Origin: Azoarcus sp. L1K30
GTDB taxonomy: Bacteria > Pseudomonadota > Gammaproteobacteria > Burkholderiales > Rhodocyclaceae
Assembly: GCF_018122735.1 (NCBI RefSeq)
Contig: NZ_JAGRRD010000001.1
Coordinates: 949,977 to 996,788 of the forward strand
DNA length: 46,812 nucleotides
Reading direction: 5' to 3'
The notes under the pieces were generated by a model, which was given only the letters and a program-made list of their open reading frames with translations, had not been told where the DNA came from and did no database searches. The position numbers were made by a program, and so were the translations under genes. Within the stretch, counting starts at the first letter, position 1; each line of letters opens with the position of its first letter. This document shows positions 238 through 31,141 of the stretch, one piece after another.

Positions 238-301
238 CGCGCGTTCCGGACAAGGATCTTGCGCAAAGCGGATAAACATTCATCACCCTGAAATGAACAC
301 T
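238..301 (+). promoter_or_regulatory. Putative XylS-type operator/promoter of the SDR-monooxygenase operon (weaker member)
   Basis: The half-site TGCGCAAAGCGGATA (260-274) fits TGCR-N6-GGATA and is strikingly like the distal XylS box of the Pm promoter. A degenerate copy, CGCGCGTTCCGGACA (238-252), precedes it by 22 bp rather than 20-21. If the 260-274 box overlaps the -35 position as in Pm, transcription would start near 309, 42 nt before the ATG at 351. The hexamer at the expected -10 place (296-301, AACACT) is poor. The assignment rests mainly on the good proximal half-site and on the four clearer copies elsewhere in the window. Confidence 0.5.
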
Positions 302-350
302 GTGTCCCACGGACGCCCCAAGCGGCGTCATCGACAGGAGGACACAGCAG

Positions 351-1139
351 ATGAAAGGGATCAAGGGCAAGGTCGCCATTGTCACGGGTGGCGCCACGAT
401 GATTGGCGAGGCGGTCGCCGCTGAGCTGATCGCATGCGGGGCACGCGTCGTTCTTGCCGACATCGATGCGCTCAAGGGCGCCGCCGCGGCAGAGCGGCTT
501 GGGCGGGACGCTCGTTTCCACCAGACCGACGTCAGCCACGATGCTGACATCGCGCGCTGCATCGATGCCACCGAAACCGCCTTTGGCGGCATCGACTACC
601 TCGTCAATTGCGCGTGCACCTACGTCGATAACGGCGCCGCATCGACCCGCGCCGAATGGAACCAGGCCCTGGACGTCAATCTCGTGGGCGCCGCGATGAT
701 GCTTCAGGCCTGCCGTCCGCAGATGGTCAAGCGCGGTGGCGGCGCAGTGGTCAACTTCGCCTCCATCTCCGCCTCGGCAGCCCAGTCCGGACGCTGGCTC
801 TACCCTGTCAGCAAGGCCGCCATCGTGCAGTTCACCCGATCTGCCGCACTGGATCTCGCCTCCGAAGGCATCCGCGTCAACGCCGTTTCGCCCGGCTGGA
901 CATGGTCTTCGATCATCGAAACCCTGTCCGGCGGAGACAAGGCGAAGGCCGACTCGGTCGCGGCCGACTACCACATCACCGGCCGCCTCGGCCTGCCTGA
1001 GGAAGTCGCACAGGTCGTCAGCTTCCTGCTCTCGGACCACGCCAGTTTCGTCACCGGTGCAGATTACGCCTGCGACGGCGGCTACAGCGCACTGGGCCCC
1101 GAAGGCAAGGCCGCTGCGATCACGCGCCTGATGGATTGA
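351..1139 (+). CDS. Short-chain dehydrogenase/reductase (SDR)
   Basis: A classical SDR of 262 aa. The nucleotide-binding loop reads TGGATMIG (residues 12-19), where the usual middle glycine is Met. Asn110 and the catalytic Ser138-Tyr151-Lys155 set (YPVSK) are present, and the C-terminal GADYACDGG is typical of the family. It starts the operon SDR, StyA-like monooxygenase, FadL channel, flavin reductase, FAD oxidoreductase. In described indole-degrading iif clusters a StyA-like oxygenase, a flavin reductase and an SDR that oxidises the hydroxylated indole occur together, so a role in oxidising the monooxygenase product is a reasonable inference. The specific substrate is not visible in the sequence. 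An upstream XylS-like half-site suggests inducible expression. Confidence 0.9.
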   Translation: MKGIKGKVAIVTGGATMIGEAVAAELIACGARVVLADIDALKGAAAAERLGRDARFHQTDVSHDADIARCIDATETAFGGIDYLVNCACTYVDNGAASTRAEWNQALDVNLVGAAMMLQACRPQMVKRGGGAVVNFASISASAAQSGRWLYPVSKAAIVQFTRSAALDLASEGIRVNAVSPGWTWSSIIETLSGGDKAKADSVAADYHITGRLGLPEEVAQVVSFLLSDHASFVTGADYACDGGYSALGPEGKAAAITRLMD

Positions 1140-1184
1140 TTCGCCTCACCCCACAACATCAAGGACACACCAAAGGAGCACTTC

Positions 1185-2471
1185 ATGCATCTCGCCAATG
1201 AGAACTCGACCCCGCGCAGCATTGCCATCGTCGGCGCCGGCCAGGCCGGACTGTTGCTTGGCTGCGCCCTTCTGGACAAGGGCTATGCGGTCACCATGGT
1301 TACCAATCGCACGGCGGAAGACGTGTGGAACGGCAAGGTCATGTCATCGCAGTTCATTTTCGACCCCGCGTTGCAGATCGAGCGCGATTTCGGCCTCGAC
1401 CAGTGGGAGGCCGACTGCCCGCGCACCGAAGGCATCAGCTTCTCCATCCCGACACCGGACGGCAGCGGTAACAAGGCCATTCACTGGCACGCTCGCCTCG
1501 ACGCCTACGGACAGTCGGTGGACCAGCGTGTGAAGATGCCCGGCTGGATGAAGGAGTTCGTCCGCCGTGGCGGCGATCTGCGTTTCGAAGATGTCGGCGT
1601 ACCCGGGCTCGAAAACCTTGCGGCTGCGCACGAACTGGTTCTGCTCGCCGGCGGCAAGGGCGAGATCGTCAATCTGCTCGGTCGCGACGACAGCCGCTCG
1701 CCGGTGCGCCAGCCGATGCGCCAGCTCGCGCTGAGCTACGTCACCGGCATGAAGCGCCACGACTACTACGAGTGCGTGAACTTCAACCTCATTCCCGGCG
1801 TCGGCGAGTACTTCGTCTTTCCCGCGCTGACCACCGCCGGTGCGCAGGGCACGCAGGCCTGCGACATCATGGTTTTCGAGGGCGTACCGGGTGGCCCGAT
1901 GGACTGCTGGGCAGACGTCAAGAGCCCCGAGCAGCACCTCGAGACCAGCCTCAACGTTCTCAAGACCTTCGTCCCGTGGGAATACGAGCGCAGCCGCGAC
2001 TGCCAGCTCACCGACCCCAATGGCATCCTGGCCGGTCGCATCACGCCGACCGTGCGCAATGCCGTGCTCACGCTGCCGTCCGGCCGCAAGGTGTTCGGCA
2101 TGGGTGACGCCGTGCTGGTCAACGACCCCATCACCGGCCAGGGCTCGAACAATGCCACCAAGGGCGCGAAGCACTATCACGATGCGATCCTTGCCCGTGG
2201 CGCGGCGCCCTTTGACGAGGCGTGGATGCGGCAGACCTTCGATGCGCTGTACACAGGCTACGCGGAAAAGGTCGTGAGCTGGACCAACAGCCTGCTGTTC
2301 CCGCCACCGGAATACATCGTCAAGCTGCTCGGCAGCGCCCAGCAGGTGCCCGCGATCGCATCGCGCATCGCCAATGGTTTCAACGACCCGCGTGATTTCG
2401 CCAATTACTGGTTCGACCCGGCCGCGGCCGACCGTCTGATCGAGTCCGAAATGCAGAAACTTGCCGCCTGA
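1185..2471 (+). CDS. Styrene/indole monooxygenase family FAD oxygenase (StyA-like)
   Basis: A 428-aa protein of the two-component FAD monooxygenase family that includes styrene monooxygenase StyA and indole oxygenase IifC. The N-terminal Rossmann motif GAGQAG is followed by a PHBH-type fold. The C-terminal FAD motif GMGDAVLVNDPITGQGSN and the FNDPRDFANYWFDP tail match the StyA layout and length (about 415 aa). The enzyme would use reduced FAD supplied by a separate reductase, which is encoded 1.2 kb downstream. An AAGGAG ribosome site precedes the ATG. Family knowledge gives epoxidation or hydroxylation of styrene or indole rings. The SDR upstream and an isatin-hydrolase-like cyclase under a related operator at 28.9 kb make indole or a related N-heterocycle the favoured substrate, by inference. 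Confidence 0.85.
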   Translation: MHLANENSTPRSIAIVGAGQAGLLLGCALLDKGYAVTMVTNRTAEDVWNGKVMSSQFIFDPALQIERDFGLDQWEADCPRTEGISFSIPTPDGSGNKAIHWHARLDAYGQSVDQRVKMPGWMKEFVRRGGDLRFEDVGVPGLENLAAAHELVLLAGGKGEIVNLLGRDDSRSPVRQPMRQLALSYVTGMKRHDYYECVNFNLIPGVGEYFVFPALTTAGAQGTQACDIMVFEGVPGGPMDCWADVKSPEQHLETSLNVLKTFVPWEYERSRDCQLTDPNGILAGRITPTVRNAVLTLPSGRKVFGMGDAVLVNDPITGQGSNNATKGAKHYHDAILARGAAPFDEAWMRQTFDALYTGYAEKVVSWTNSLLFPPPEYIVKLLGSAQQVPAIASRIANGFNDPRDFANYWFDPAAADRLIESEMQKLAA

Positions 2472-2481
2472 GGAAACCATA

Positions 2482-3681
2482 ATGAAAACATCCAGAAAAG
2501 CCACCCCCAGCACCCTGAGCCGTATCGCACTGGCCGTCTCGCTCACCCTTCCCGTCACCGCCTTCGCCACACAAGGCACCTTTCCCCACGGCTACGGCGT
2601 CAAGGCCGAAGGCATGGCCGGGGTGTCGATCGCCCTGCCGCAGGATGCCGTCGCCGGCGCAAACAACCCGGCCGGCATGGTTCATGTCGGCAGCCGCTTC
2701 GATCTCGGCGGCGCTTTTCTCAAGGTCGACAACGGTGCCGTGCTCGGCGGTACCGACTTCAATGGCGCCGAAGACAAGACCCTCTACATCATTCCCCAGC
2801 TCGGCTACAACCATATGCTCGACAACCAGCAGTCGATCGGTCTGTCGGTGGTCGGCAATGGCGTGGGGACCGACCAGGGCGGCCCGGTCGGCCCGCTCAC
2901 CGAACCCAAGTCCGAACTGCAGCAGATGGTGAGCACGGTGAGCTATGCGCGCAGGATCGACGATGCCAACAGTCTGGGGGTCGGTCTCGTCCTCGGCTAC
3001 CAGCGCCTGCGCATCGAAGGCCCGGCGGGACTGGGCTTGCCGCAGGGACGGGATTCGTCCTTCGGCTTCGGCCTCAGCCTCGGCTGGCAGGGTCAGGTCA
3101 CGCCCGAGCTCGCGCTCGGCGCGACCTGGTCGAGCAAGGTACGCATGGGCAAGATGGACGAGTTCAAGGGCCTGCTCGCCGAGCAGGGCGATCTGGACAT
3201 CCCCGAGCATTACGGCATCGGCGCCGCGTGGACGCGCGGCGCCACCACGGTGGCCGCGGACGTGATGCGCATCAAGTGGGCCGACGTGGCCTCGCTCGGC
3301 AATGCCGGCGTGGCCATTGCGCCGGGCGCACCCGGCGCGAACGATGGCCCCGGTTTCGGCTGGCACAACCAGACCGTCTGGCGCGTCGGCGTCGCCCACG
3401 CAGTCAGCGACAGCCTGACCTTGCGTGCCGGCTACAGCCATGGCACCCAGATCCTCGACTCGCAGAGCACCTTCCTCGGCATTCTCGCGCCGGCGGCAAA
3501 CCGCAAGCACTGGACGCTGGGCGCCACCGTCGCCGTTGCGCCGAAGATGGAACTGTCGCTCGCCTATGCCCGGTCCCCCAAGGAAACCGTGCGCGGCGAC
3601 GGCCCCGGCCCCAACAACGGCACCGACCTCTACATGGGTCAGCACTGGCTTTCGGCCAGCCTCGCCATCCACTTCGACTGA
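2482..3681 (+). CDS. FadL/TodX-type outer-membrane hydrocarbon transporter
   Basis: A 399-aa protein of the OmpP1/FadL/TodX family. An N-terminal signal peptide (about residues 1-29, cleaved after AFA) is followed by THGT-type conserved segments: FPHGYGVKAEGMAG, the NNPAGM element of the hatch region, and a C-terminus ending in amphipathic strands with Phe near the end (AIHFD). The ATG at 2482 is chosen because AGGAAA stands just upstream. Members of this family carry hydrophobic substrates such as aromatic hydrocarbons across the outer membrane. Its place between the monooxygenase and its flavin reductase suggests it imports the pathway substrate. Confidence 0.88.
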   Translation: MKTSRKATPSTLSRIALAVSLTLPVTAFATQGTFPHGYGVKAEGMAGVSIALPQDAVAGANNPAGMVHVGSRFDLGGAFLKVDNGAVLGGTDFNGAEDKTLYIIPQLGYNHMLDNQQSIGLSVVGNGVGTDQGGPVGPLTEPKSELQQMVSTVSYARRIDDANSLGVGLVLGYQRLRIEGPAGLGLPQGRDSSFGFGLSLGWQGQVTPELALGATWSSKVRMGKMDEFKGLLAEQGDLDIPEHYGIGAAWTRGATTVAADVMRIKWADVASLGNAGVAIAPGAPGANDGPGFGWHNQTVWRVGVAHAVSDSLTLRAGYSHGTQILDSQSTFLGILAPAANRKHWTLGATVAVAPKMELSLAYARSPKETVRGDGPGPNNGTDLYMGQHWLSASLAIHFD

Positions 3682-3700
3682 ACACGACCGGAGAGCCGTC

Positions 3701-4225
3701 ATGATCGATCCACGCGCCTACCGCAACGCGCTGGGGCACTTCGCCACCGGCGTGACCGTGATCACCACACGGGATGCCGAGGACAAGCCCGTCGGCGTCA
3801 CCGTCAACAGCTTCAGCTCGCTCTCGCTCGATCCGCCATTGATCCTGTGGAGCCTGGCGAAGAAGTCCTACAGTCTGGACGCCTTCGAACGCCACCCGGC
3901 GTTTGCGGTACACGTGCTGGCAAGCGACCAGCAGAGCGTGTCCGACCGCTTCGCGCGCGCCGGTACCGACAAGTTCGCCGGCATCGATGCCGGCGAGGGC
4001 TTCGGCGGCGTGCCGCTGCTTCCGGGCTGCGCGGCGGTGTTCCAATGCACTACCGAACACCGCTATGACGGGGGCGACCATGTGATCATGGTCGGCCGCG
4101 TGCAGCGCTTCGATACCGCGGAGCGTCCGCCGCTGCTGTTCTACCGCGGCCGGTACGCGACACCTGAAACCGAGGCCGTCCCTTTCACCAGCCTGTTGCG
4201 CGCCTTTGCCGGCGCGGCGGCCTGA
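3701..4225 (+). CDS. Flavin reductase of two-component monooxygenase (StyB/HpaC family)
   Basis: A 174-aa flavin reductase-like domain protein. The family signature is clear: RNALGHFATGVTVITT at the N-terminus, then VNSFSSLSLDPPLILW and the GGDHVIMVGRV strand. It would reduce FAD with NAD(P)H and pass it to the StyA-like oxygenase upstream. The start at 3701 follows CGGAGAG and gives the usual N-terminus and family length. A second, distinct flavin reductase (16.8-17.4 kb) serves the RutA-like enzyme, so each flavin monooxygenase in this window has its own partner. Confidence 0.9.
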   Translation: MIDPRAYRNALGHFATGVTVITTRDAEDKPVGVTVNSFSSLSLDPPLILWSLAKKSYSLDAFERHPAFAVHVLASDQQSVSDRFARAGTDKFAGIDAGEGFGGVPLLPGCAAVFQCTTEHRYDGGDHVIMVGRVQRFDTAERPPLLFYRGRYATPETEAVPFTSLLRAFAGAAA

Positions 4226-4236
4226 AGGGGGCGACG

Positions 4237-5817
4237 ATGAGCAAGTTCGACGCGGTCATTGTCGGCAGCGGCATCAATTCGCTGGTGTGCGCAGGCATTC
4301 TTGCCAAGCGCGGCAAGAAGGTCGTGGTGCTCGAGCGCGAAGCCGTCCTCGGCGGCTGCATCCGCAGCGAGGCGCTGACGGCCCCCGGCTTCCTGCACGA
4401 CACCCTGTCGACCGCCCATCCGCTGTTCGTCACCTCGCCCGGCTACGCAGAGCTGAAGGACGAGTTGCATGCCCGCGGCCTCGCCTACGGCAACAATGCG
4501 ACGCCCACCGGCATTCTGATGCCGGACGGGCGCTCACTGGTGATGGGCACCTCGCGCGATGCCAACGTGCACGCAATGAACGCGCTCGCCGCGGGCGACG
4601 GCGATGCTTATGCCGAAGCCATGGGCTTTGTCGAGCGCAATGCCGAACTCATCTTCGCGCTGCTCGGCAACGAGTTGTGGAGTTCGCAGATCGGCAAGAT
4701 GATGCTGGGACGGGTGTGGAAACAGGGCGCGCACGACACCATGGCCTTTTTCGGACCCGCCATGCAAACCTGCCGGGCATGGCTGGAGACGCGCTTTCGA
4801 TCCGATCTGGTCAAGGGCTTGCTCGCGCCATGGGTCCTGCATACCGGCCTCGGCCCCGAGAGCGCGATGTCGGCACTGATGGCCCAGGTCGTCGCTTTCA
4901 CGCTGGAGGCGGTCGGCCTGCCCATCGTCAAGGGCGGCAATGCAAGGACGGTGGATGCCTTCCGTGCGTTCATCGAAGGCTGCGGGGGCGTGTTCCACAC
5001 GGCCGCAGACGTGGCGGAAATCCTGGTCGACGGCGGCAAGGCCCATGGCGTCCGGCTGGCCGACGGCCGCATCTTCGAAGGCAAGCAGGTCATCGCCAAC
5101 GTCACCCCCACCCAGCTCTACGGCCGCCTGCTCAAGAACGGCAGCGCACCCGAGCCGATTCGCCGTCAGGCAGCCGAGTACCGTTACGGCAAGGGCAACA
5201 TGCAGATCCACCTCGCGCTGTCGGCGCCACCGCAGTGGCCCGAGGCACATCTGCGGGATGTCATCTACCTGCATTTGACGGAGGGGATGGATGCCGTTTC
5301 GCGTGCAGTCAATGAAGCCGAGCGCGGACTCCTGCCCGCTGCGGGCACCATCTGTGTCGCGCAGCCGTGCGCCGTGGATGCGTCGCGCGCACCGGCCGGG
5401 CAGTGGGTGCTGTGGATACAGCTGCCCGAGTGCCCGCGCCATATCAAGGGTGACGCCGCCGGCGACATCCCGCCACCGGCAGACGGGCGCTGGAACACCG
5501 ACATCGCCGAGCGCTACGCGGACCGCATCATCGGTCGTATTGCCCGTCAGGTGCCAAACCTGGAAAGCAGCATCGTCGGTCGCAAGGTGATTTCTCCGGC
5601 CGATCTCGAGGCGATGAACATCAACCTCGTCGGCGGTGACCCCTACTCCGGCGAGTGCAGTATCGACCAGTACATGTTCTGGCGTCCGCTTCGCGGGGTC
5701 AAGGATCACGCCACCCCGGTCAAGAATCTTTACCAGATCGGTGCATCGACCCACCCCGGCCCGGGCCTGTCCGGTGCGTCGGGCTTTCACGTAGCCAACG
5801 CGCTCGCAAGGCGCTGA
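4237..5817 (+). CDS. Phytoene-desaturase-like FAD-dependent oxidoreductase
   Basis: A 526-aa protein with an N-terminal dinucleotide-binding motif GSGINSLVCAG (residues 9-19) and the LERE...GGCIRSE segment typical of the CrtI/PYROXD2 branch of the amine-oxidase superfamily. The C-terminal FAD-binding segment reads YQIGASTHPGPGLSGASG. It lies 11 bp after the flavin reductase and is the last gene of the operon. Proteins of this branch desaturate or oxidise varied substrates. It could oxidise an intermediate of the monooxygenase pathway, but the reaction cannot be read from the sequence. It is not a carotenoid gene by context, as no crtB-like or isoprenoid gene is nearby. Confidence 0.8.
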   Translation: MSKFDAVIVGSGINSLVCAGILAKRGKKVVVLEREAVLGGCIRSEALTAPGFLHDTLSTAHPLFVTSPGYAELKDELHARGLAYGNNATPTGILMPDGRSLVMGTSRDANVHAMNALAAGDGDAYAEAMGFVERNAELIFALLGNELWSSQIGKMMLGRVWKQGAHDTMAFFGPAMQTCRAWLETRFRSDLVKGLLAPWVLHTGLGPESAMSALMAQVVAFTLEAVGLPIVKGGNARTVDAFRAFIEGCGGVFHTAADVAEILVDGGKAHGVRLADGRIFEGKQVIANVTPTQLYGRLLKNGSAPEPIRRQAAEYRYGKGNMQIHLALSAPPQWPEAHLRDVIYLHLTEGMDAVSRAVNEAERGLLPAAGTICVAQPCAVDASRAPAGQWVLWIQLPECPRHIKGDAAGDIPPPADGRWNTDIAERYADRIIGRIARQVPNLESSIVGRKVISPADLEAMNINLVGGDPYSGECSIDQYMFWRPLRGVKDHATPVKNLYQIGASTHPGPGLSGASGFHVANALARR

Positions 5818-5888: not shown

Positions 5889-7523
5889 TCAGACGGTAAA
5901 CTGGCCCATTGCCATCTTCATTCGTTCCACCGACCGGTCCAGGCTACCGACGGCGGCACGCGTCTGTGCCACCACCGACATGTTCTGGTCGGTCATCGAG
6001 GCGACCCGTTCGACACTTTGAGCCATGACGGCCATCGCATTGTTCTGCTCGGCCGAGGAATGGGTAATGTCATTGACCATACCCAGCGTCTTGCCCATCT
6101 GCGTGTTGATCTCAAGCAATGCGCCCTGCGCATCCTGCACCAGCTGAACGCCGCTTTCGACCTGCGCCGCACCCTGTCGCATGCCGCTGACCGCCTTGCC
6201 GGTTTCGGCCTGGATCGCGCTCACCATGGTGCTGATTTCCTTGGTCGCGTTTCCGGTGCGTTCGGCCAGCTTGCGCACTTCGTCGGCAACCACGGCGAAA
6301 CCGCGGCCCTGCTCACCCGCTCTGGCCGCCTCGATTGCCGCATTGAGCGCCAGCAGATTGGTCTGATCGGCGATATCGCTGATCACACCGGTAATGCGGG
6401 AAATCTCGGCCGACTTGGCGCCCAGGAACTCGACCTGACCCGCGGCGTGCTTGACCGTGTCGGCCAGCGCCAGGATGGTTTCGCTCGCCTTTGCCGACAG
6501 GGTGCTGCCGCGTGCCGACACCTCGCTCGCCAGTTCCGCTGCGCTGCGAGTGGCCGCAGCATGGGCGGCCACTTCGCCAATGGAAACCGTGATCTGCTGA
6601 ATACCCGCCGCGGCGGACGATGTCGCATCGCTCTGCACATGCGCCGCATCGCTGACGTTGCCGACCCCGCATCCCACCTCGCTGGAGACATTCGCCACCT
6701 GTTTTGCGGAATCGCTCATCCCCTGCACCGTGGCCTGCACCGAAGACACGAAGCGGTCGAGGCTGCGCGCGATGTCACCGACCAGATCGTGACGCGCAAG
6801 CACGAAACGTTTTCGCAGGTCGCCGCTCACCAGCAGGTGATCGACGTAGGCATGGAGCGATGAAATATCCCCTCCAAGGCGCGGCAAGCCCAGGAAGAGG
6901 AAGGACGTCGCCCACAGCACCGCCAGCACCGCCACGCCGGTTGCCAGCTCCTGGTGGAAGGGAAAGCGCGCAAGTTGCCCACCGAGTACGACAAGCGACA
7001 GCAACACGGTCAGCACCGCAAGTCCGAGCAGTTGCGTTTTCGCCGAATTGAATGCGGCCCACACTGAAGTTCGCGCCGGCACCACCCGTCCGTGGCGAAT
7101 ACAGATCGATCTGTCGCCCGCCTTGATGCGCTTGTACGCAACCTCAGCAGCCGCCACCTCTTCGCGATCAGGACGGCCCCGCACCGACTGATAACCGACC
7201 ACCCGTCCGTTCTCTCGCACCGGTGAGGCGTTGGCCACCACCCAGTAGAAGCCACCATCGCTACGGCGGTTCTTGACGATACCGCGCCATGGCCGCCCGG
7301 CTTTCAGATCCCGCCACATGTCGGCGAAGGCCTCCGCCGGCATGTCCGGGTGACGCACGATATTGTGCGGCTGCCCAACCATCTCTTCAGGCCGGTAGGC
7401 ACTGATCTTCGCAAAGGCGTCGTTCGCTTCGATGATGATGCTGTCGAGATCGGTGCGGGAATAGATGAACTCCCCCTCGGGCAGCAGGGTCTCTACGTCG
7501 ATGACGGGTGCTGGATTACGCAT
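5889..7523 (-). CDS. PAS-containing methyl-accepting chemotaxis protein (Aer-like)
   Basis: A 544-aa chemoreceptor. An N-terminal PAS domain (about 15-125) contains the Aer-like segment NIVRHPDMP and [13 protein letters not shown]. Two hydrophobic segments follow (about 163-180 and 190-212), then a cytoplasmic signalling domain with the highly conserved hairpin tip ([20 protein letters not shown]). There is no periplasmic ligand domain, so, as in Aer, sensing is probably internal (redox state or energy via a PAS cofactor). It is convergent with the monooxygenase operon. Chemoreceptors beside degradation genes often direct cells towards the substrate through its metabolism (inference). Confidence 0.9.
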
Positions 7524-10219: not shown

Positions 10220-10685
10220 GCTTCGAGCCTCCACTGCTGAATCCGGTGCAGACACGCAGCCCGCGCTGACGCAAATGCAATGCCGGCCCGCAGGGGAAAT
10301 CCTGTTCCATGACGTTGAGAACCGAGACTCTTAAGAGCAAGCGCCTGGCGATGTTCCGACATACTCCACCCACTGTCATGCGCCGAACCTCTGCCATGCA
10401 GGGTCGACAGTTAATTGTTTTCGGGGCGGAATTTGGGCCCAGACAGGCCGGCAACAAGCGCTGCCTGGCAACGACATCCCGGCGGGGGCTGGGCCGAGGT
10501 GATCAATTCAGCTGACAGACATCGCATGCCTTGCACACGATGCTCAGTGATTTCTTGTAACCAATTTGCCTGATGTGTTGACAAAAATCAATAATGAATC
10601 AGTAAATTCAACCTAAATATTTCACAATTAAATGCAAAACCACGGATCCGGCATGCCAGACGGATCGTGCAACGCGCGGATGCAC
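10220..10685. other. 466-bp intergenic region with an AT-rich island
   Basis: No convincing gene was seen. The part 10550-10635 is much richer in A/T than its surroundings. It contains TTGACA at 10578-10583 on the plus strand, without a good -10 and with no plus-strand gene downstream. It most likely holds the promoter and leader of the minus-strand globin-GGDEF-EAL gene, but I cannot place the elements. Confidence 0.4.
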
Positions 10686-18514: not shown

Positions 18515-18581
18515 GATCGTTATCCTTATTGAGTACAGACGCTTGTTGGGGCGTGCCTGAAACATCGTTCGGCACAACCCG

Positions 18582-19694: not shown

Positions 19695-19901
19695 GGAGCG
19701 TCTCTCCAGTATCATCTGCAGTGCGCAGAATTTATTTATGTTTAAATTAAAACAGACCTAAGTCGCTCCCGTCTATACATTTTTCAGTACGTCACCGTAC
19801 TGCAGCGAGCACGGCGGCTCCCATCACCGACACCGGCACCCAGCCGTTCGGCGGTCAACTCACGTCGGACTAACGCTCAGGCCAGTCTGCGCGCAAAGGT
19901 G

Positions 19902-19963
19902 TGCAGCCTCCGGATAGCCCTTGCGCCCGCGGGATAGGCTGCGCAAGCCCGATCTTCTAGCCT
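19902..19963 (+). promoter_or_regulatory. XylS-type operator and promoter of the mobB-molybdoenzyme operon
   Basis: Two exact matches to TGCR-N6-GGATA lie 20 bp apart: TGCAGCCTCCGGATA (19902-19916) and TGCGCCCGCGGGATA (19922-19936). After 21 nt comes TAGCCT (19958-19963), close to the Pm -10 TAGGCT. The predicted start is near 19971, 46 nt before the mobB ATG. The rest of the 19695-20016 intergenic region shows an AT-rich stretch near the regulator start and no gene. Confidence 0.78.
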
Positions 19964-20592: not shown

Positions 20593-20702
20593 GCACCGTC
20601 ACCGCGCCCTAAGCTGCAAGCACCTTTCCGACCCGAACCACCCCGCCCGCCGATCGCCAGTGCCCGCAACGGCGGGACTTCCGTCAGGAGCACGAGAACA
20701 TC

Positions 20703-23423: not shown

Positions 23424-23426
23424 ACA

Positions 23427-24074
23427 ATGACCCGCTATGTCATGGTCGCAGACCTCAACCGCTGTGTCGGCTGTCAGACCTGCACCGCCGCCTGCCGCCA
23501 CACCAACGCCACCCCACCGGGCGTGCAGTGGCGAAAGGTGCTCGATATCGAAATGGGCGAGTACCCCAATGTAGACCGCCTGTTCATGCCCGTCGGCTGC
23601 CAGCACTGTTCCGACCCACCATGCATGGAGGTCTGCCCCAGCACCGCCACCGGCCAGCGCAAGGACGGCATCGTCACCATCGACTACGACATCTGCATCG
23701 GCTGTTCCTACTGCGCGGTGGCCTGTCCCTACCAGGCGCGCTACAAGGTGGAGGAAGCCCGCTTCGCCTATGGCGACACCCCGACCGAGAACGAAGCCAT
23801 CCGCTTCGATGCCGGCCGCATCGGTGTCGCACAGAAATGTACCTTCTGCGCCGACCGCGTCGATGCCGGGTTGGCGATGGGACTTACGCCGGGTGTCGAC
23901 CCGGATGCCACCCCGGCCTGTGCCAACGCCTGCATCGCCAATGCACTGACCTTCGGCGACCTGGAGGACCCCAACAGCAAGGTCTCCGAACTGCTGACCG
24001 AGAACACCTGGTTTCGCATGCACGAAGAACTGGGCACCGATCCGGGCTTCTTCTATCTCTGGAACGAAAAATGA
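23427..24074 (+). CDS. Four-cluster ferredoxin subunit of the molybdoenzyme (DmsB/PadC-like)
   Basis: A 215-aa electron-transfer subunit. Cysteine groups are CVGCQTCTAACRH (about 11-23), CQHCSDPPCMEVCPS (about 64-78), CIGCSYCAVACPY (about 91-103) and CTFC...ACANAC (about 134-172), enough for four 4Fe-4S clusters as in DmsB, NrfC and PadC. It starts 3 bp after the catalytic gene and overlaps the anchor gene by 4 bp. It would carry electrons from the molybdenum site to the membrane subunit. Confidence 0.92.
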   Translation: MTRYVMVADLNRCVGCQTCTAACRHTNATPPGVQWRKVLDIEMGEYPNVDRLFMPVGCQHCSDPPCMEVCPSTATGQRKDGIVTIDYDICIGCSYCAVACPYQARYKVEEARFAYGDTPTENEAIRFDAGRIGVAQKCTFCADRVDAGLAMGLTPGVDPDATPACANACIANALTFGDLEDPNSKVSELLTENTWFRMHEELGTDPGFFYLWNEK

Positions 24075-24934
24075 TCAACGAGAAATTCGCCCGCTTCGGC
24101 ACGGTTCACCAGACCAGCTGGGACGGCCGCGCCGCAGGCAACTTCATCTGTGGCGGCGCCGGCGCCGCCCTGCTCGCCATCGCCGTGCTCACCTCCTGGC
24201 CGACGGCCCCGGACTGGCGCCTGCTCGTCCTCGCACTGGCCTTGATCGGTGCAGGTCTTGCCTTCGTGTGGACCGAGATCGGCCGCCCATGGCGCGCTTT
24301 CAACGTGCTTTTCCATCCCCAGACCTCATGGATGACCCGCGAAGCCTTCGTCGCCGGTCTGATCGCCGTTCTCGTGTTCGCGACCATCGCCACCGGCATG
24401 GCGGCGACGGCATACGCTGCCGCGCTGGCGGGCCTGCTCTTTCTCTACTGCCAGGGTCGCATCCTGCGCGCCGCCAAGGGCATCCCCGCCTGGCGCGAAC
24501 CGAGCATCGTGCGCCTGATCGTGAGCACCGGTCTGGTCGAAGGTCTCGCCCTTCTCATACTGGCGGATCTTGCCATCGGCGCCGCTCGGCCCAACATGCC
24601 GGCTGCTTTGCTCTTGCTGGCCGTGCTGCGCTTCGGTACATGGTGGCGCTACCGTTCGCGCATGCTCGGCTCGGACGCGCCACGGTCCACGCGGACGACA
24701 CTTGCGGTCGTGCATCGCGCGCTGCTGGCTGGAACCGCACTTCCCGTGCTGGCGTGCGGCGCAGCCATTGCGGTGCCGGGCGCGGCCGCAGCCGGCTCAG
24801 CGGTGGCTGCCCTTTCAGCACTGGGGGCAGGCTGGTACTTCAAGTACCTGCTCATCACCCGCGCTGCGCAGGTACAGGGCTATGCGCTGGGCAACAAGCT
24901 GCGTCGGGGGCATCCGCTGGCTGCGCAGCGCTGA
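24071..24934 (+). CDS. Membrane anchor subunit of the molybdoenzyme (DmsC/PadD-like)
   Basis: A 287-aa hydrophobic protein with about eight predicted helices, of the DmsC/NrfD-type anchor group (WTEIGRPWRAFNVLFHPQTSWMTREAF is the conserved early loop). It would pass electrons to the quinone pool. The ATG overlaps the Fe-S gene stop (ATGA). The gap to the next, convergent gene (24935-25113) shows only small imperfect hairpins. Confidence 0.88.
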   Translation: MINEKFARFGTVHQTSWDGRAAGNFICGGAGAALLAIAVLTSWPTAPDWRLLVLALALIGAGLAFVWTEIGRPWRAFNVLFHPQTSWMTREAFVAGLIAVLVFATIATGMAATAYAAALAGLLFLYCQGRILRAAKGIPAWREPSIVRLIVSTGLVEGLALLILADLAIGAARPNMPAALLLLAVLRFGTWWRYRSRMLGSDAPRSTRTTLAVVHRALLAGTALPVLACGAAIAVPGAAAAGSAVAALSALGAGWYFKYLLITRAAQVQGYALGNKLRRGHPLAAQR

Positions 24935-25113
24935 TGGCAGGCGTGTGATCGCGCGGTAGCGGTCCATTGCGCTCAGCAAGCGCTCCCCCGCGAAGCGATC
25001 AAGCTTGAAACGTTCGCGCAGCTTGCCGTCAATGGCAGGAGATCGACATTGATGGCCAAGCTGCAAGAACCGACCTCCGAAATTACCGCGCGTGGATTCA
25101 GGCAGCAGAGCCT

Positions 25114-28100
25114 TCAAGTGCGGCGCAAGTGGTCTCCGACACCGTGGGCGCTCGCATAGGCGGTGATGTAGCCGTAACAGGCACGCGCGTCGTCGGCCAA
25201 CTCTAGAAAACTGATTCGGCGGCGACTCCAGCGGTCGAAATCCGGCCGATTGAGCGCCCTGTCCGAATCACACAGCGCCATGCCCCAATCCGGGAAAAGA
25301 CGGCGATGAGCAGGCCCCTCGATGACGACACGGATGTCTCGATGCCTGACATCGGCCCGAATCCGCTCCATTACCCTTTCAATGTTTTCGGATTTTCCCT
25401 CGAGGATCTGCATGAAGCAGCCGTCCTGATGCACCAGGCAGCCCGACACGCCGATACTGCGATTGAGCTCACCGGCCTTGCTGCACAGCGCCTCGAGTGT
25501 CTGGGCTGACAGTGGTACCACCGCCTGACTGACATACACGAGAAAGTGCAACGACTCAGCCTCGTGCGAGAGATCATCGCCCGCGGAATCTTCCACTCTC
25601 TCGATGAAGTGCTCCAATTCGAGGGGCCGATGAAAGTAGTAACCCTGAATGAAGTCACAGCCATAAGCGCAGAGCTCGCGCCATTGCGCCGCGTCCTCGA
25701 CGCCTTCTGCAATCAGCTTCAGCCCAAGCGCGCGCCCCAGACCAATCACTGCACGGATGACAGTGCGACTCTCCGTACTGCGGTCGATGCCCTCCACGAA
25801 CGCACGATCGATCTTCAGCACATTCACCGGCAGCCGGGTCAATTGCGCCAGGGAAGAATAGCCGGTACCAAAATCATCCACCGCAACCCGCAGACCGAAC
25901 TCAGCCAGGCGACGCAGAATACTCAGGTTGGTCTCTACATCCGCCATCAGAGACGTTTCCGTGATTTCGAGCAATAATCTGGCCGGATCTGCACCCGTCT
26001 CCTGCAAGATCGCGGCGAAGTCGTTGGCAAGGGTCTCTTCACTCAACTGCCGCGTCGAGAGGTTCAGGGAAACATAGGGAGCACGTTGCCCCCAGCGCTG
26101 CCGCCAGTCGACCTCCGCCTGGCAGGCAGCCCGGAATACCCATGCCCCGATCGGCACGATCGCGCCGGTCGACTCGGCAATCGGAATGAATACGGCAGGA
26201 GAAACGTCCCCCGCCGGTGGCCTCCACCGAAGCAACAATTCGGCGCCGACGATACGACCACTCTCCGCGGCAACGATCGGCTGAAAACGCGGCGACAACT
26301 CATTGCGTTCGATCGCCGTGCGCAGGCCATTGGTGATCATGAGCCGCTGCCTGGCTTGCTCCTGCAGGGTTTCGCTGAAAAACTGCCAGCCGTCTCGTCC
26401 CTTTTCCTTTACCGCATACATCGCAGCATCGGCGTGGTGAATCAGGTCGTCCGCCGAATGCGTGCTTCCCGTACCAAGCGCGATACCGATGCTGGCCGAG
26501 ACATACATCGGCAATCCATCATACTCAAAGGACTGCCGCAACCGCTCGTTGATGCGATCGGCGAGACCGTTCAACATCGCCGGCACCTCGACCTGCTCGC
26601 ACAAGATCAGGAACTCGTCACCGGCCAGTCGCGACACCATGTCCCCTCGCCGCACCAGCTCGATCAGCCGGGCAGCCACCGTCTTCAGCAGGCTGTCGCC
26701 AGCGTCGTGCCCGTAGGTATCGTTGATCAGTTTGAATCCGTCCAGATCGACGAACAGGAGGCCAACCGGAAGGCCGGTGCGCTGGGACCGCTGCAGGATA
26801 TTGACCAGTCGGTCCCGGATCAGGGCGCGATTGGGCAGACCGGTCAACGGGTCGTGCGTTGCGCGTCGCGTCAGCTCCTCTTCCGCCTTCTTGCGCTCGG
26901 TTACGTCGCGCATGGTGACCACGAGCAACCACGCATCGCCATGCCGTACCTTGGCAATCGAGGCTTCGAGCGGAAAGAAACTGCCATCCTTGCGGTAACC
27001 CATCACCTCCGTGCGGCCTGCCATACGGCGCTCGGTCTCCTCGCTGTCAAGGAAGTGCCGCACAAGCTCCACATGCCGTTGCCGGAAATGCGGCGGTACA
27101 AGCTGATGCAGGGACAGCCCGAGTAGTTCGCCTTCGGCGTAGCCGAAGATCTCACAGATATTTCGGTTGGCCTCGCTGATGATGCCATCGGCGTTCGCCG
27201 CCAGAACTCCCATATCGGCAATGCTGAGAATCTGCTGCGCAGTGCCGAGCGTGCGCTGGGCACCTGCCACCGCCGAAGCGATATCCGCCGAGAGGTCGGG
27301 CCTCGGCCACGACTCACGCAACCGTGCCGCCATCGATCGCGCCCGATAGCGTTCCGGAATCACTGGCGGAATCTGACCGAAATGCTCGATGATCTCGAAA
27401 TCACCCTTACTCGTGCAGCGCGCCAGATACGTATTGACCACCGCATGGTGAGTCGTCGCATCCATGTCAACCCGCCCTTGCGGTCCGGTGATGCGCACCG
27501 CTTCCAGCGCATCGACCAGTGCTTCGGCTTCCACCGTTCCAGCCGTCTCGGCAGCCTTCGCAAATGCATGGACGCACAGGTAGGCGCCCTCGCCGAAATT
27601 CGTCAGGATCCCGTTCCCTTCCGGCCAGATGCCATCAATATCCGGCTCACGGGCGAGGCGCTGCAGGTAGCGATGGTTTTCAGCGCTATCAAGCGACATG
27701 AAATACGTATTGCTTGAATACAGCCCCTCTCGCACCTCGGGCGGCAGACAACTCGCCATCATTTCATCGAAGTGCCCCATCACCACCGCCATGCGCTTCG
27801 ACAATCCCATTTCAGCAAAACAGGTCAGCAGCCTGATCTGATCATTTCCGGCGAAATAGGGCACGAACACGTCAGCACCAGATCGCGCTACCTTTTCAAG
27901 CAAGGTCCGGATCTCCTCATCGCTGGCGCCGATCGACAGATACTCCTCGCCGAGACAATCGCCTTCAATACCCTCGAGCGTGCGCTTGGCCGCGTCGATC
28001 GAACCACGCGGCCACTCATAGTTATTTCCTGCAAAAAACATCTTGAGCCCGTAACGACGGGCCATGAACGGGATCATCTTTTCGATCTGCTGGTTCGGCA

Positions 28101-28548
28101 GCGCAGCGATATTGAAAAAATAGCGCCCCGAGATGCTGCCCTCGTAGAACGAAAAGTTCAGATAGGGCATGTGCAGCGGCTCGGCAACCTGCTCAGCCAC
28201 CGCGATCCGCGAATTGGACAGCAGGTTGCCGATGATGGCTGCGCAGCGATGCTCATTCACCAGCCTCAAGGCAGCGGGCACCGCCGTATCGGGCAGGCTG
28301 CCGTCGTCCTCGATGACCAGTTCGAGTGGTCGCCCAAGTACACCACCGCGCTCGTTGATCTCGTCGCAGGCAATCCGCGCCGCCCGGACGATCTCCGGCC
28401 CATACAAAGCCACCAGTCCGGTGAGGGGCGGCGTCAAGCCGATACGAACGGCAGCGGCCACCAACTTTCGTTCGTCAGAGACCGACGGATGGGGCTGCGG
28501 ACATCCGCTGTGGTCGGGAGGGGCGGCAGTCTTGTGCAAATCAGCCAA
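25114..28548 (-). CDS. Amide-binding-domain/PAS/GGDEF/EAL/BLUF multidomain c-di-GMP photoreceptor
   Basis: A protein of about 1144 aa. Order: AmiC/FmdD-type periplasmic-binding fold (about 30-405; GNNYEWPRGS as in the amide/urea binding group) but without a signal peptide, so cytoplasmic like AmiC; PAS/PAC (about 440-555); GGDEF (about 565-725; LAGDEF, with an RxxD inhibitory site); EAL (about 745-985; ELLLRW, EITET, DDFGTG, EGVED); BLUF (about 1000-1095) with the photo-active Tyr1005, Asn1029, Gln1047, Trp1088 and Met1090 in place. It would join sensing of an amide-like ligand and of blue light to c-di-GMP turnover. The frame opens after a stop with only TTG codons available early. TTG at 28548 has GGAG six bases upstream and is the likely start. 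The region 28549-28792 has no gene. Confidence 0.88.
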   Translation of the reverse strand: MADLHKTAAPPDHSGCPQPHPSVSDERKLVAAAVRIGLTPPLTGLVALYGPEIVRAARIACDEINERGGVLGRPLELVIEDDGSLPDTAVPAALRLVNEHRCAAIIGNLLSNSRIAVAEQVAEPLHMPYLNFSFYEGSISGRYFFNIAALPNQQIEKMIPFMARRYGLKMFFAGNNYEWPRGSIDAAKRTLEGIEGDCLGEEYLSIGASDEEIRTLLEKVARSGADVFVPYFAGNDQIRLLTCFAEMGLSKRMAVVMGHFDEMMASCLPPEVREGLYSSNTYFMSLDSAENHRYLQRLAREPDIDGIWPEGNGILTNFGEGAYLCVHAFAKAAETAGTVEAEALVDALEAVRITGPQGRVDMDATTHHAVVNTYLARCTSKGDFEIIEHFGQIPPVIPERYRARSMAARLRESWPRPDLSADIASAVAGAQRTLGTAQQILSIADMGVLAANADGIISEANRNICEIFGYAEGELLGLSLHQLVPPHFRQRHVELVRHFLDSEETERRMAGRTEVMGYRKDGSFFPLEASIAKVRHGDAWLLVVTMRDVTERKKAEEELTRRATHDPLTGLPNRALIRDRLVNILQRSQRTGLPVGLLFVDLDGFKLINDTYGHDAGDSLLKTVAARLIELVRRGDMVSRLAGDEFLILCEQVEVPAMLNGLADRINERLRQSFEYDGLPMYVSASIGIALGTGSTHSADDLIHHADAAMYAVKEKGRDGWQFFSETLQEQARQRLMITNGLRTAIERNELSPRFQPIVAAESGRIVGAELLLRWRPPAGDVSPAVFIPIAESTGAIVPIGAWVFRAACQAEVDWRQRWGQRAPYVSLNLSTRQLSEETLANDFAAILQETGADPARLLLEITETSLMADVETNLSILRRLAEFGLRVAVDDFGTGYSSLAQLTRLPVNVLKIDRAFVEGIDRSTESRTVIRAVIGLGRALGLKLIAEGVEDAAQWRELCAYGCDFIQGYYFHRPLELEHFIERVEDSAGDDLSHEAESLHFLVYVSQAVVPLSAQTLEALCSKAGELNRSIGVSGCLVHQDGCFMQILEGKSENIERVMERIRADVRHRDIRVVIEGPAHRRLFPDWGMALCDSDRALNRPDFDRWSRRRISFLELADDARACYGYITAYASAHGVGDHLRRT

Positions 28549-28792
28549 TACGAACTCCAAGCGTCAATGGCTGCGTCCAGGCAGCCAAGCAAGCCAATGA
28601 CTGCACTCTAGCGGAAAACCTACTATTCCGTTATGGGTAATTTCGCACTCCATGAAGAACGCGCGGCGGCGCAGCAATGCGTATATCAGCCCCGAACCCC
28701 AAGTCTGCGAGAGGTAGCGACCCCCTCCAACTGCCTAGCTCTTTGGTGACATACTAGATCAATCTGCCGGCTCCGCCCTGCCCCGCACCATT

Positions 28793-28854
28793 TGCGCTTT
28801 ACGGATAGCCACTCGCGCTTTTCGGATTTCCCCATCGGCCCGGATGCATAACAA
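28793..28854 (+). promoter_or_regulatory. XylS-type operator and promoter of the cyclase gene
   Basis: The boxes TGCGCTTTACGGATA (28793-28807) and CGCGCTTTTCGGATT (28814-28828) are nearly identical to each other and 21 bp apart, exactly the Pm period. A -10-like TAACAA (28849-28854) follows after 20 nt. The predicted start near 28863 gives a 20-nt leader with GGGAG before the ATG at 28883. Confidence 0.72.
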
Positions 28855-28882
28855 TGCGTCATCCACTTACCGGGAGATGTTC

Positions 28883-29671
28883 ATGACCGCCAGCAGCGCA
28901 CTGTCGCAATTCGCACTCGAGCTTGCGACCGGACAGATTCGCATTGTCGACCTGACGCAGACCTTGTCGCCCGAGTTCCCGTCGCTCCAACTGCCACCCC
29001 AGTTCGGCCAGTGCTGGCCATTCAGGATGGAAGAGATCTCGCGCTACGACGAGCGCGGCCCGGCGTGGTACTGGAACAATTTCTCGATGTCGGAGCACAC
29101 CGGCACGCACTTCGATGCGCCGGTGCACTGGGTGAGCGGCAAGGATTTTCCGAACAACGCAGTGGACACGATTCCGCCGGAGAATTTCGTGGCACATGCC
29201 TGCGTGATCGACTGCAGCCGCGAAGCGGCGGAGAACCCGGACTTCCTGCTGACGGTGGAGTTCGTCGAACGCTGGGAAGCCACCCACGGCAAGATTCCCG
29301 CCCGCTCCTGGGTGCTGCTGCGCACCGACTGGTCCAAGCGTGCGATGCCCGACGAATACGTCAATGCGCGTGAGGATGGCCCGCATACGCCGGGGCCCGC
29401 GCAGGGCCTGGTGCAGTGGCTGATCGACGAGCGCGACGTGTTCGGGTTCGGCGTGGAGTCGATCAATACCGACGCCGGGCAATCCTTTGCATGGGACATG
29501 CCCTTCCCGTGCCACTACCTGATGCATGGCAACAACCGTTACGGTCTGCAGTGCCTGACCAATCTCGACCAACTCCCGGCCCAAGGCGCAATCATCGTCG
29601 CTGCGCCGCTGAAAATCCGGAATGGCTCCGGCAGTCCGCTACGCGTCATCGCGCTCGTCCCGGGCCAGTAA
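28883..29671 (+). CDS. Cyclase-family metal hydrolase (isatin hydrolase / kynurenine formamidase type)
   Basis: A 262-aa protein of the cyclase superfamily. The metal site HTGTHFDAPVH (residues 72-82, pattern HxGTHxDxPxH) is intact, and the protein ends with IRNGSGSPLRVIAL, as in the family. Members hydrolyse cyclic or acyl amides: isatin to isatinate, formylkynurenine to kynurenine. Two ATGs lie close together; 28883 has GGGAG at the best distance. It is a single-gene unit with its own XylS-type promoter and a strong terminator. With a StyA/indole-oxygenase-like enzyme in the same window, isatin or a related oxindole is an attractive substrate, but sequence alone cannot separate it from other amides. 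Confidence 0.82.
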   Translation: MTASSALSQFALELATGQIRIVDLTQTLSPEFPSLQLPPQFGQCWPFRMEEISRYDERGPAWYWNNFSMSEHTGTHFDAPVHWVSGKDFPNNAVDTIPPENFVAHACVIDCSREAAENPDFLLTVEFVERWEATHGKIPARSWVLLRTDWSKRAMPDEYVNAREDGPHTPGPAQGLVQWLIDERDVFGFGVESINTDAGQSFAWDMPFPCHYLMHGNNRYGLQCLTNLDQLPAQGAIIVAAPLKIRNGSGSPLRVIALVPGQ

Positions 29672-29740
29672 ACGCCTCTCTGCCCGAACGGGGAACCTCT
29701 CCAGAACCCCGTCCCTAACCCGGACACCCCGTTCGCTTGA

Positions 29741-29772: not shown

Positions 29773-29773
29773 G

Positions 29774-30787
29774 TCATCCGCGCGCCAGGGTGTCTGACGG
29801 CGACTCGCCGAAGCGGCGCTTGTAGTCGGCCGCGAAGTGGCCAAGATGGCTAAAGCCCCAGTTCAGTGCGACCGTCGTCACCCGCACCGAGAAGGGGTCG
29901 GATGCCCGCAGCTCGTCATGCACACGCTGCAGCCGCACATCCTTGAGATATTGCATCGGAGAAGTATCGCGAAATCGCCGGAAACCGGCGAACAGCGAGC
30001 GACAGCTCACCCCGGCATGCTCCGCCAGATCGACGACAGTGATGGCCTCGTGAGCATGCTCTTCGATAAAGCGCTCGACCCGCTTGACGAAGGACGGCGC
30101 AATGGCGGGTGCCTCTGCGCACAGCGCCTCGGTGTAGCTGTGTGGCTGGCAGGTCAGCAGCATCGTCAGCACCAACTGCTCGATCTGCGCCTCGATGAGT
30201 GGCGCGCCCATCGTCGTCTGACCCTCCGCTCCGGCCGCGTCGGCCTCGCAGACCAGCCAGTTGACCATCCGCATCCAGCGTTGCCCGGCCACCGTATCGA
30301 GCGGCATGTCCATGCGAAAGTCGATGGGCTTGCGCATCGAATGCCCCAGGTGCTGCTGGCAGTGGCGATCGAGCACCTCACGGTCGACCCGCACGAAGAG
30401 CTTCTCCGTGCCCGCGTGATGCGACATCGAGAACGGCCGCTGGTGGCCGATGACCGATGCCGTATCGCGGTTGGAGTGCACCACGATGTCGCCGCTGCGG
30501 ATCATCTCGTGACCGCTCAAGGGCATCTGCACCAGAAGGAAGGAGTCGAGCGAGCCCGGTTCGATGGAGACGTTGCCGCCATAGCTCATGCGCCCGACGC
30601 CAACCCCCCTGAACCGCCGCAGGCACATGTAGGCATCGATCCGGGCGCGCGCGTCGAGCACACGCAGACGGTGCTCGCAGAACACGTTGGTGCCTTCGCA
30701 GCGCGCCTCATCGACGTCCTGGGTGCTGAACACCGTATATCTCGACAAGGGCGCGGTCTTCGCCAACTGAGGTATGTGAACGTTCAT
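29774..30787 (-). CDS. AraC/XylS-family transcriptional activator (copy 2)
   Basis: A 337-aa regulator with the same two-part build as the one at 18.7-19.7 kb: a XylS/FeaR-like ligand domain (VFCEHRLRVL, GVGRMSYGGNVSIEPG, TEKLFVRVDREVLDRHC) and a C-terminal double helix-turn-helix (VVDLAEHAGVSCRSLFAGFR; WGFSHLGHFAADYKRRFGES). By eye the two share roughly half of their residues, with near identity in the recognition helices, so both probably bind the same TGCR-N6-GGATA boxes but may answer different ligands. AAGGAA precedes the ATG. It is divergent from the YCF48-RND cassette and convergent with the cyclase, both of which carry the boxes. Confidence 0.9.
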   Translation of the reverse strand: MNVHIPQLAKTAPLSRYTVFSTQDVDEARCEGTNVFCEHRLRVLDARARIDAYMCLRRFRGVGVGRMSYGGNVSIEPGSLDSFLLVQMPLSGHEMIRSGDIVVHSNRDTASVIGHQRPFSMSHHAGTEKLFVRVDREVLDRHCQQHLGHSMRKPIDFRMDMPLDTVAGQRWMRMVNWLVCEADAAGAEGQTTMGAPLIEAQIEQLVLTMLLTCQPHSYTEALCAEAPAIAPSFVKRVERFIEEHAHEAITVVDLAEHAGVSCRSLFAGFRRFRDTSPMQYLKDVRLQRVHDELRASDPFSVRVTTVALNWGFSHLGHFAADYKRRFGESPSDTLARG

Positions 30788-31079
30788 GGTGGTTCCTTAT
30801 GTGCCTGCGCTCGGCGCGTGCTTAAGCGGGCACGCCGATTCAAGTTGATGACGCCCGCCGACGATCAGCGGCCGCATTCCGGTCATTCATCCAGCCCGCA
30901 CCCGATCGGTGCGCCGCGGCCCATCTCAGTGCCACCTACCGGGCCGGAGGGGCAGATCTGGCCCACAGACAAGGGCGCTTGCCGATGCCCGTCTGATGAC
31001 CACTTGCTTTAAGCAACAACTATTCCAATACGAACTTCCTTACCGCTTTCGGTCAATCGCACCTCCTGCGCGATTGAGC
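30788..31079. other. Divergent intergenic region with a small palindrome
   Basis: No gene was seen. A short inverted repeat TTGCTT-T-AAGCAA lies at 31004-31016 in an A/T-rich patch and could be an operator or part of the regulator's promoter. Together with the operator/promoter at 31080-31141 and the leader to 31201 it makes a 414-bp divergent control region between the AraC-type gene and the YCF48-RND cassette. Confidence 0.35.
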
Positions 31080-31141
31080 TGCGCGAATGGGATAGGACCT
31101 GCGTTGATTGGATAGTCGCTCGGGGGGCGAATCTCTAGGTT
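31080..31141 (+). promoter_or_regulatory. XylS-type operator and promoter of the YCF48-RND cassette
   Basis: Two exact matches to TGCR-N6-GGATA lie 20 bp apart: TGCGCGAATGGGATA (31080-31094) and TGCGTTGATTGGATA (31100-31114). Exactly 21 nt later comes TAGGTT (31136-31141), one base from the Pm -10 TAGGCT. The predicted start is near 31149, 53 nt before the ATG at 31202. This is the clearest copy of the motif in the window. Confidence 0.8.

Follow-up and report, generated by a model that had tools for sequence, protein, structure and literature searches.

Paired XylS/Pm-type repeats at the heads of scattered catabolic operons in Azoarcus sp. L1K30

Do the catabolic operons scattered over one stretch of the Azoarcus sp. 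L1K30 genome share a kind of promoter and, if so, do they answer to a single regulator? The stretch in question, called the window here, is 46,812 nucleotides (nt) long (contig NZ_JAGRRD010000001.1, positions 949,977 to 996,788; positions below are counted from its first letter unless a contig is named), and a preliminary description had proposed XylS/Pm-type promoters before four of its operons, perhaps five, as marks of one regulon. We find paired direct repeats close to TGCR-N6-GGATA at six promoters of the window, rare in the genome and conserved before orthologous operons, and consider it very probable that this dispersed catabolic island is driven by XylS-type regulators from XylS/Pm-like class II activator promoters. 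The genome (G000; 4,978,121 bases in 6 contigs) was compared chiefly with four of the same genus (G001–G004) and one of another genus (G030).

Repeat pairs and promoter geometry

Six promoters in the window carry tandem TGCA/G-N6-GGNTA direct repeats, which match at 18 of 18 positions before mobB and the YCF48-RND operon and at 15–17 of 18 before the other four. The repeat period is 20 or 21 at five of the six and 22 at the remaining one, before the SDR-indole monooxygenase operon.

238-274, plus strand: box pair of the SDR-indole monooxygenase operon, CGCGCGTTCCGGACA-N7-TGCGCAAAGCGGATA, period 22; hexamer AACACT at 296-301
18643-18609, minus strand: box pair of the LLM (RutA/SfnG-like) operon, TGCAGGCGGCGGATA-N5-GTGAGTTTCGGGATA, period 20; hexamer TAGATT at 18587-18582
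19902-19936, plus strand: box pair of mobB, TGCAGCCTCCGGATA-N5-TGCGCCCGCGGGATA, period 20; hexamer TAGCCT at 19958-19963
20553-20587, plus strand: box pair of the molybdoenzyme, overlapping the end of mobB, period 20; hexamer TAAGCT at 20610-20615 (22 nt)
28793-28828, plus strand: box pair of the isatin-hydrolase-family cyclase, TGCGCTTTACGGATA-N6-CGCGCTTTTCGGATT, period 21; hexamer AACAAT at 28850-28855
31080-31114, plus strand: box pair of the YCF48-RND operon, TGCGCGAATGGGATA-N5-TGCGTTGATTGGATA, period 20; hexamer TAGGTT at 31136-31141

Direct reading bears out all four pairs that the preliminary description had placed, in position and in period, and the fifth, which it had called weaker, is a pair at 238-274 that relatives conserve at period 22. 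Its -10-like hexamers TAGATT, TAGCCT and TAGGTT also stand, at 21 nt; for the cyclase it had chosen TAACAA at 20 nt, whereas we prefer AACAAT at 21 nt because the G004 orthologue is preceded by GACAAT at that distance. The pair at 19902 had been assigned to mobB and the molybdoenzyme together, which holds for mobB but not for the molybdoenzyme, whose conserved promoter is the pair at 20553-20587, missing from the earlier list. Since the relatives' stretches lack mobB yet carry the 20553-type site, 19902 as the ancestral molybdoenzyme promoter is ruled out.

The architecture is that of Pm itself. Read from plasmid pWW0 (NC_003350), Pm runs TGCAAGAAGCGGATA-N6-TGCAAAAAATGGCTA-N21-TAGGCT, and the geometry seen here is the same, as had been proposed. 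Past the window lies a divergent promoter pair serving an alpha/beta hydrolase-LigB-FAA hydrolase set, which we name mhpCBD-like, and a TPP enzyme whose gene begins 434 bp from its site; with these two, eight promoters of this genome can be compared. The hexamer lying exactly 21 nt past the proximal box has A at its second and T at its sixth position in seven of the eight (binomial P 4e-10 from base composition, where the offset was taken from Pm and the A2/T6 criterion was chosen after the hexamers had been seen). The eighth is the molybdoenzyme promoter, with TAAGCT at 22 nt; its G004 counterpart has TAGGCT at 21 nt, identical in letters to Pm.

Several known systems share this layout. XylS/Pm of the TOL plasmid pWW0 has two 15-bp direct repeats, TGCA-N6-GG(N)TA, with TAGGCT 21 nt on, as described in PMC5481539, but is a single promoter of period 21, whereas there are eight here with periods of 20, 21 or 22 according to the operon. 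The Pben promoter of Pseudomonas, target of BenR, likewise has repeat sites at period 20, which the available text of PMC1360089 proposes rather than tests. In Rhodococcus sp. YH-5B, mutational evidence for the CphR target promoter, given in PMC6205950, backs a pair of TGCA-N6-GGNTA repeats (-35/-49 and -55/-69), again of period 20, though that case is actinobacterial, involves a single promoter and concerns chlorophenol. The architecture is thus already known from XylS/Pm, BenR and CphR; the present promoter set appears to be new, and its nearly operon-specific period is unexplained by the known cases compared here.

One further promoter lies at the edge of the window, which is bordered on both sides by runs of 100 N (C1:949877-949976 and C1:996789-996888) that are probably scaffold gaps.

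46792-46797, minus strand: TAGGAT, hexamer of the oxoO promoter, within 49 nt that recur unchanged at the mhpC promoter

The oxoO boxes would lie in the gap past the window end. The gene occurs twice in three relatives (G001:C1:770323 and 787280; G002:C1:3566421 and 3583380; G030:C1:2256251 and 2271964), and in G001 and G002 the same upstream site precedes both copies.

Rarity and conservation of the pairs

A genome scan for clustering, as against hits at chance frequency, had been set beforehand as a check, and it found good matches confined to the island. The strict pattern TGCRN6GGATA-N5/6-NGCRN6GGAT occurs four times in the whole genome, compared to 0.019 expected from base composition and none in the reversed control; all four matches, that of the TPP enzyme among them, fall inside 44 kb (C1:969878-1013756); the window holds three of them, and the fourth is 17 kb past it. 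When up to three mismatches are allowed, the period-20 pattern has 11 matches compared to 3 in the control, and its four best (0, 0, 0 and 1 mismatch) are all in the island; the only one with a single mismatch is 20553-20587, and the TPP site is again among the 11. The period-21 pattern has 10 matches compared to 3 and is led by the cyclase site (2 mismatches); with period 22 and a GGAYA distal box the figures are 20 compared to 12, with the SDR site (1 mismatch) in front. Clustering is thus confined to good matches: those with three mismatches occur genome-wide, elsewhere at roughly the control rate.

A matrix built from the other genomes finds the same sites. It was trained on 17 of the 22 box pairs found in G001–G004 and G030 and scored for periods 20 and 21 only; the five dropped were a duplicate, a 6+9 pair and three pairs in overlapping registers of triple boxes, and a pair from genome G036 was left unused. 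Over 166.7 kb of the present genome its top six positions are island sites, namely YCF48, molybdoenzyme, TPP enzyme, isatin hydrolase, LLM and mobB (37.9, 32.5, 32.1, 27.4, 24.7 and 23.4), and the next score is 12.0; since orthologues of these sites were among the pairs used for training, the result measures conservation rather than fresh discovery. From twelve equally long first-order random sequences one expects 0.08 matches of at least 18 per region, with one null position at 26.7. In a class-wide strict scan only one of 369 genomes, Azoarcus sp. L1K30, has matches; this set excludes the genus relatives and G030, so that the scan marks the strict motif as rare and says nothing on the rarity of such regulons.

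Conservation upstream of orthologous operons was another check named beforehand, and pairs were indeed found there in the genus relatives and in G030. A pattern search of 61 genomes gave matches in 10, with the reversed control empty: the genus contributes all five of its genomes (the present one included), and 5 of the 56 beyond it have one match each. Those in G030 and G036 adjoin XylS-type genes; around those in G040, G041 and G050 a search with 46 query proteins shows no XylS-type or catabolic gene inside 1.5 kb. Operon by operon, and counting this genome where it was included, the YCF48 pair is present in 5/5 promoters examined, each a full 9+9 (18/18) at period 20; the molybdoenzyme pair in 5/5 (own, G001, G002, G004 and G030) at period 20; the LLM pair in 4/4 at period 20; and the SDR pair in 5/5 (own, G001, G002, G003 and G030) at period 22, even with different boxes in G030. 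For oxoO, a pair with a weak proximal box precedes all five copies examined (two in G001, two in G002 and one of the two in G030), and for the isatin hydrolase together with a 76%-identity paralogue a recognisable pair remains in four of five promoters, with period 21 in all four.

The pairs also move with the heads of operons. Where AmOx, our label for an amine-oxidase-like flavoprotein, sits inside the SDR operon, it has no pair of its own (scores of 12 in G000 and 13 in G001); where it is detached, in G002, G003 and G004, it has one, scoring 17–18 and of period 21 in all three. In G030 a separate pair (period 20) precedes the Gluconate_2-dh3/GMC genes, and in G004 these genes follow the pair beside the regulator AraC1 (period 21), on a contig where LLM was not found. 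The gene mobB, which did not turn up in the syntenic stretches examined in relatives, is headed by a pair of its own (19902), and the conserved molybdoenzyme pair lies downstream of that. That the pairs keep to operon heads is, in our view, the best evidence for their being parts of working promoters.

When gene heads were scored over 350 bp upstream, in rows picked with the site positions known, 36 of the 42 tested rows reached 14–18 of 18, while all 25 control gene heads stayed at 12 or below. Nine of the passing rows score exactly 14, six being oxoO/mhpC and three IndA2; the IndA2 rows (box B GCATA/GCACG) were left out of the regulon. The six rows below 14 are the isatin hydrolases of G000 and G004, where the start codon used shortens the scored stretch and the sites are seen otherwise; the isatin hydrolase of G001, with a decayed distal box; the TPP enzyme, whose site falls outside the scored 350 bp; and the two in-operon AmOx genes, where no pair was expected. 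Two cyclase homologues of 72% identity, taken up below, lie outside this set of rows.

Regulators and rival readings

The preliminary description counted two AraC/XylS paralogues. Both are in the window, and to them we add a third just outside it and two on contig C3, which brings the related XylS-type regulators of this genome to five.

C1:948588-949655, just upstream of the window: AraC0, XylS-type regulator (PF14525 and HTH_18)
18678-19715, minus strand: AraC1, XylS-type regulator (Pfam AraC_binding_2, PF14525, and double HTH, HTH_18)
29774-30787, minus strand: AraC2, second XylS-type regulator, divergent from YCF48-RND (Pfam AraC_binding_2, PF14525, and HTH_18)

In alignment these three are only 25.6–28.6% identical to XylS, too little to class them as XylS itself, and neither AraC1 (174.8 bits) nor AraC2 (194.2 bits) reaches the curated cut-off of 350 for AndR (NCBIfam NF041686). 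AraC1 and AraC2 are 53.6% identical to each other, AraC0 37–38% to either. PMC5481539 names helices 3 and 6 as those that make the recognition; we placed them on the alignment ourselves for AraC0, AraC1, AraC2 and the first C3 regulator. The corresponding segments are near-identical in AraC1, AraC2 and the C3 protein (RSLFAGFR or RSLFTGFR; HLGHF) and differ in AraC0 (RALEEGFRK; HLGRF), and on this placement the genome has at least two recognition-helix types among its XylS-type regulators.

On contig C3 (10.5 kb; L177 5338-9000) the two regulators, in tandem, stand beside a second indole-oxygenase/FadL set. At 7332 of that contig is a site whose boxes are variant, with GCACG/GCATA as box B; its period is 20 and its hexamer CAAATT, and similar variant boxes precede the second indole-oxygenase gene in G001, G002 and G030.

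As we picture it, a XylS-type dimer (AraC1, AraC2, AraC0 or the C3 pair) would be activated by a nitrogen-heteroaromatic or a breakdown intermediate and would bind the two TGCR-N6-GGATA repeats. The proximal repeat would end at the expected -35, and RNA polymerase would start from a poor -10, mostly TAG-N2-T, 21 nt on. This would switch on the indole oxygenase, the isatin hydrolase, the molybdoenzyme, the RutA-like monooxygenase, oxoO, the ring-cleavage genes and the envelope cassette. Binding, activation, start sites, inducers and the pairing of regulators with promoters are here predictions drawn from the DNA sequence.

Several observations weigh against this reading. Some boxes are imperfect: the proximal repeat of the LLM pair has a degenerate box A, the distal boxes of the molybdoenzyme and SDR pairs read GGACA, and the oxoO/mhpC proximal box matches at 5 of 9 positions. 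The molybdoenzyme -10 lies at 22 nt in G001 as well as in G000. A 98%-identical isatin hydrolase in G001 is the one with the decayed distal box, two 72%-identity cyclase homologues (G000:C1:1025550 and G002:C1:3552891) have no pair scoring at least 14 upstream, and no such site was seen upstream of a Cupriavidus oxoO (77% identity), within the 1,008 bp available there. The gene-head rows were, as said, an informed choice, and as most of the conservation comes from a single genus, the orthologous sites are not independent.

A chance origin, from a short degenerate motif picked after the sequence had been seen, has some points in its favour: genomes beyond the genus also match, three of those five without a XylS-type or catabolic query gene nearby, and matches appear all over the genome once three mismatches are allowed. 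Such an origin is contradicted by sites that are conserved before orthologous operons and recovered by a matrix from other genomes, as well as by the excess and clustering of the strict matches; we therefore reject it as extremely improbable. It also seems unlikely to us that AraC1 or AraC2 alone controls every one of the promoters, as would suit the single regulon and single pathway proposed at first. The shared, conserved Pm-like promoters stand from that proposal, and one box consensus, a nearly constant -10 offset and the helix segments common to AraC1 and AraC2 would all suit it. However, there are five regulators with at least two helix types, and AraC0, with its different segments, adjoins the period-22 SDR-indole-oxygenase operon; G003 has both AraC0 and that promoter, but the nearest it comes to AraC1 is a 54% paralogue, which lies on a different contig. 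Additionally, the period is nearly operon-specific and the enzymes indicate at least two substrates.

To a set of parallel local regulons, in which each regulator activates the operon or operons it adjoins and the boxes are alike by duplication of an ancestral pair, with slight cross-talk, we give appreciable but still minority weight. The gene order suits it, with AraC0 beside SDR-IndA, AraC1 beside LLM and the molybdoenzyme, and AraC2 beside YCF48 and the isatin hydrolase, as does the number of related regulators. Yet AraC1, AraC2 and the first C3 regulator are nearly alike in these helix segments, so that one would expect cross-binding, and in this assembly no such regulator adjoins the TPP/mhpC or oxoO promoters.

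A doubtful extension of the preferred reading is that spacer length is a read-out code, by which paralogous activators of nearly the same 15-bp box would split the island by period 20, 21 or 22, with proximal box and -10 kept almost in place. The period is kept by operon although box and spacer letters have changed (molybdoenzyme 20, YCF48 20, LLM 20, isatin hydrolase 21, AmOx 21, SDR 22), with the Gluconate_2-dh3/GMC pair, at 21 in G004 and 20 in G030, as a counter-example. In any case nature has supplied here Pm-type promoters of all three periods, 20, 21 and 22, and five related activators with which spacing rules and cross-talk can be studied.

Genes under the pairs and their neighbours

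What the pairs precede was read from domain, family and structure matches:

351-5817, plus strand: operon of SDR, indole/styrene-type flavoprotein monooxygenase, FadL-type porin, flavin reductase and AmOx (Pfam, NCBIfam, PDB)
13983-18607, minus strand: operon of LLM luciferase-like FMN monooxygenase, nitroreductase, Gluconate_2-dh3 subunit and GMC oxidoreductase (Pfam, NCBIfam, PDB)
20017-20592, plus strand: mobB (Pfam)
20703-24948, plus strand: DMSO-reductase-family molybdoenzyme (906 aa), Fe-S subunit and a 226-aa protein without Pfam match (Pfam, NCBIfam, PDB)
28844-29671, plus strand: open reading frame of the isatin-hydrolase-family cyclase (Pfam; PDB isatin hydrolase 5nmp, E 1.9e-121)
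31202-37668, plus strand: YCF48, RND (MMPL), DUF1302 and DUF1329 cassette (Pfam)
45369-46709, minus strand: oxoO-like Rieske oxygenase of the 2-oxo-1,2-dihydroquinoline 8-monooxygenase family (PDB 1z01, E 8e-266, 885 bits, a full-length match)

The true start of LLM is probably the ATG at 18514, and that of the cyclase the ATG at 28877. The flavoprotein at 1185 matches the flavoprotein oxygenase 7z4x (E 4.6e-159) and 9j0h of the styrene/indole monooxygenase family (E 1.7e-49) in PDB; we take the former to be an indole monooxygenase. The 906-aa molybdoenzyme (20703-23423) has no NCBIfam match above cut-off. It is paired with a 215-aa Fe-S protein, and among the stretches examined mobB stands in front of it only here. 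Two xanthine-oxidase-family genes lie elsewhere in the genome (C1:85305 and C1:3223220); for the first the best match is a xanthine dehydrogenase, and quinoline 2-oxidoreductase scores far lower.

Judged by these matches, catabolism of indole/isatin and of 2-oxoquinoline-type N-heteroaromatics is the likeliest role of the island, and the enzymes point to more than one N-heteroaromatic substrate. The shared conserved promoter ties the molybdoenzyme with mobB, the RutA/SfnG-like monooxygenase and the GMC/Gluconate_2-dh3 genes to this catabolism. In Pseudomonas putida 86 the XylS-type regulator OxoS belongs to an oxoO-containing quinoline cluster, and oxoO itself has a close counterpart here; on this lead our literature search brought up nothing. 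The iif cluster of Acinetobacter similarly combines an indole oxygenase with an SDR, and its AraC/XylS-type regulator IifR is needed for IifC expression (PMC4577076); it differs in being a single operon, and binding repeats are not described in the available portion of that paper. Comparative genomics, as reported in PMC6449761, predicts several operons under BenR in Thauera sp. MZ1T and D. aromatica, one of which includes a COG4231 2-ketoacid ferredoxin oxidoreductase, and the TPP enzyme following a pair here is perhaps of that kind; the genes there are for benzoate and phenol, whereas here they are for N-heteroaromatics. The YCF48-RND-DUF1302-DUF1329 cassette appears in the same source as an accessory member of the Betaproteobacteria aromatic regulons AphS, AphR and AphT and, in the part available, not of BenR.

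In three relatives a third box precedes YCF48 upstream of the pair, at the same 20-bp period (G001:C1:804613-804667, G002:C1:3600716-3600770 and G004:C148:38284-38338), which might give room for a second dimer or for alternative registers. After oxoO and a reductase, genes for an SDR, two amidases, an Asp/Glu racemase-like and an M20-peptidase-like protein follow in one direction (38294-45317), a candidate lactam/amide-opening module; the gene order is shared with G001, G002, G004 and G030. Two large c-di-GMP proteins are interleaved with the catabolic operons, one with periplasmic-binding, PAS, GGDEF, EAL and BLUF domains (25114-28560) and one with protoglobin, PAS, GGDEF and EAL domains (7610-10255), and a PAS-containing chemotaxis protein is encoded at 5889-7523.

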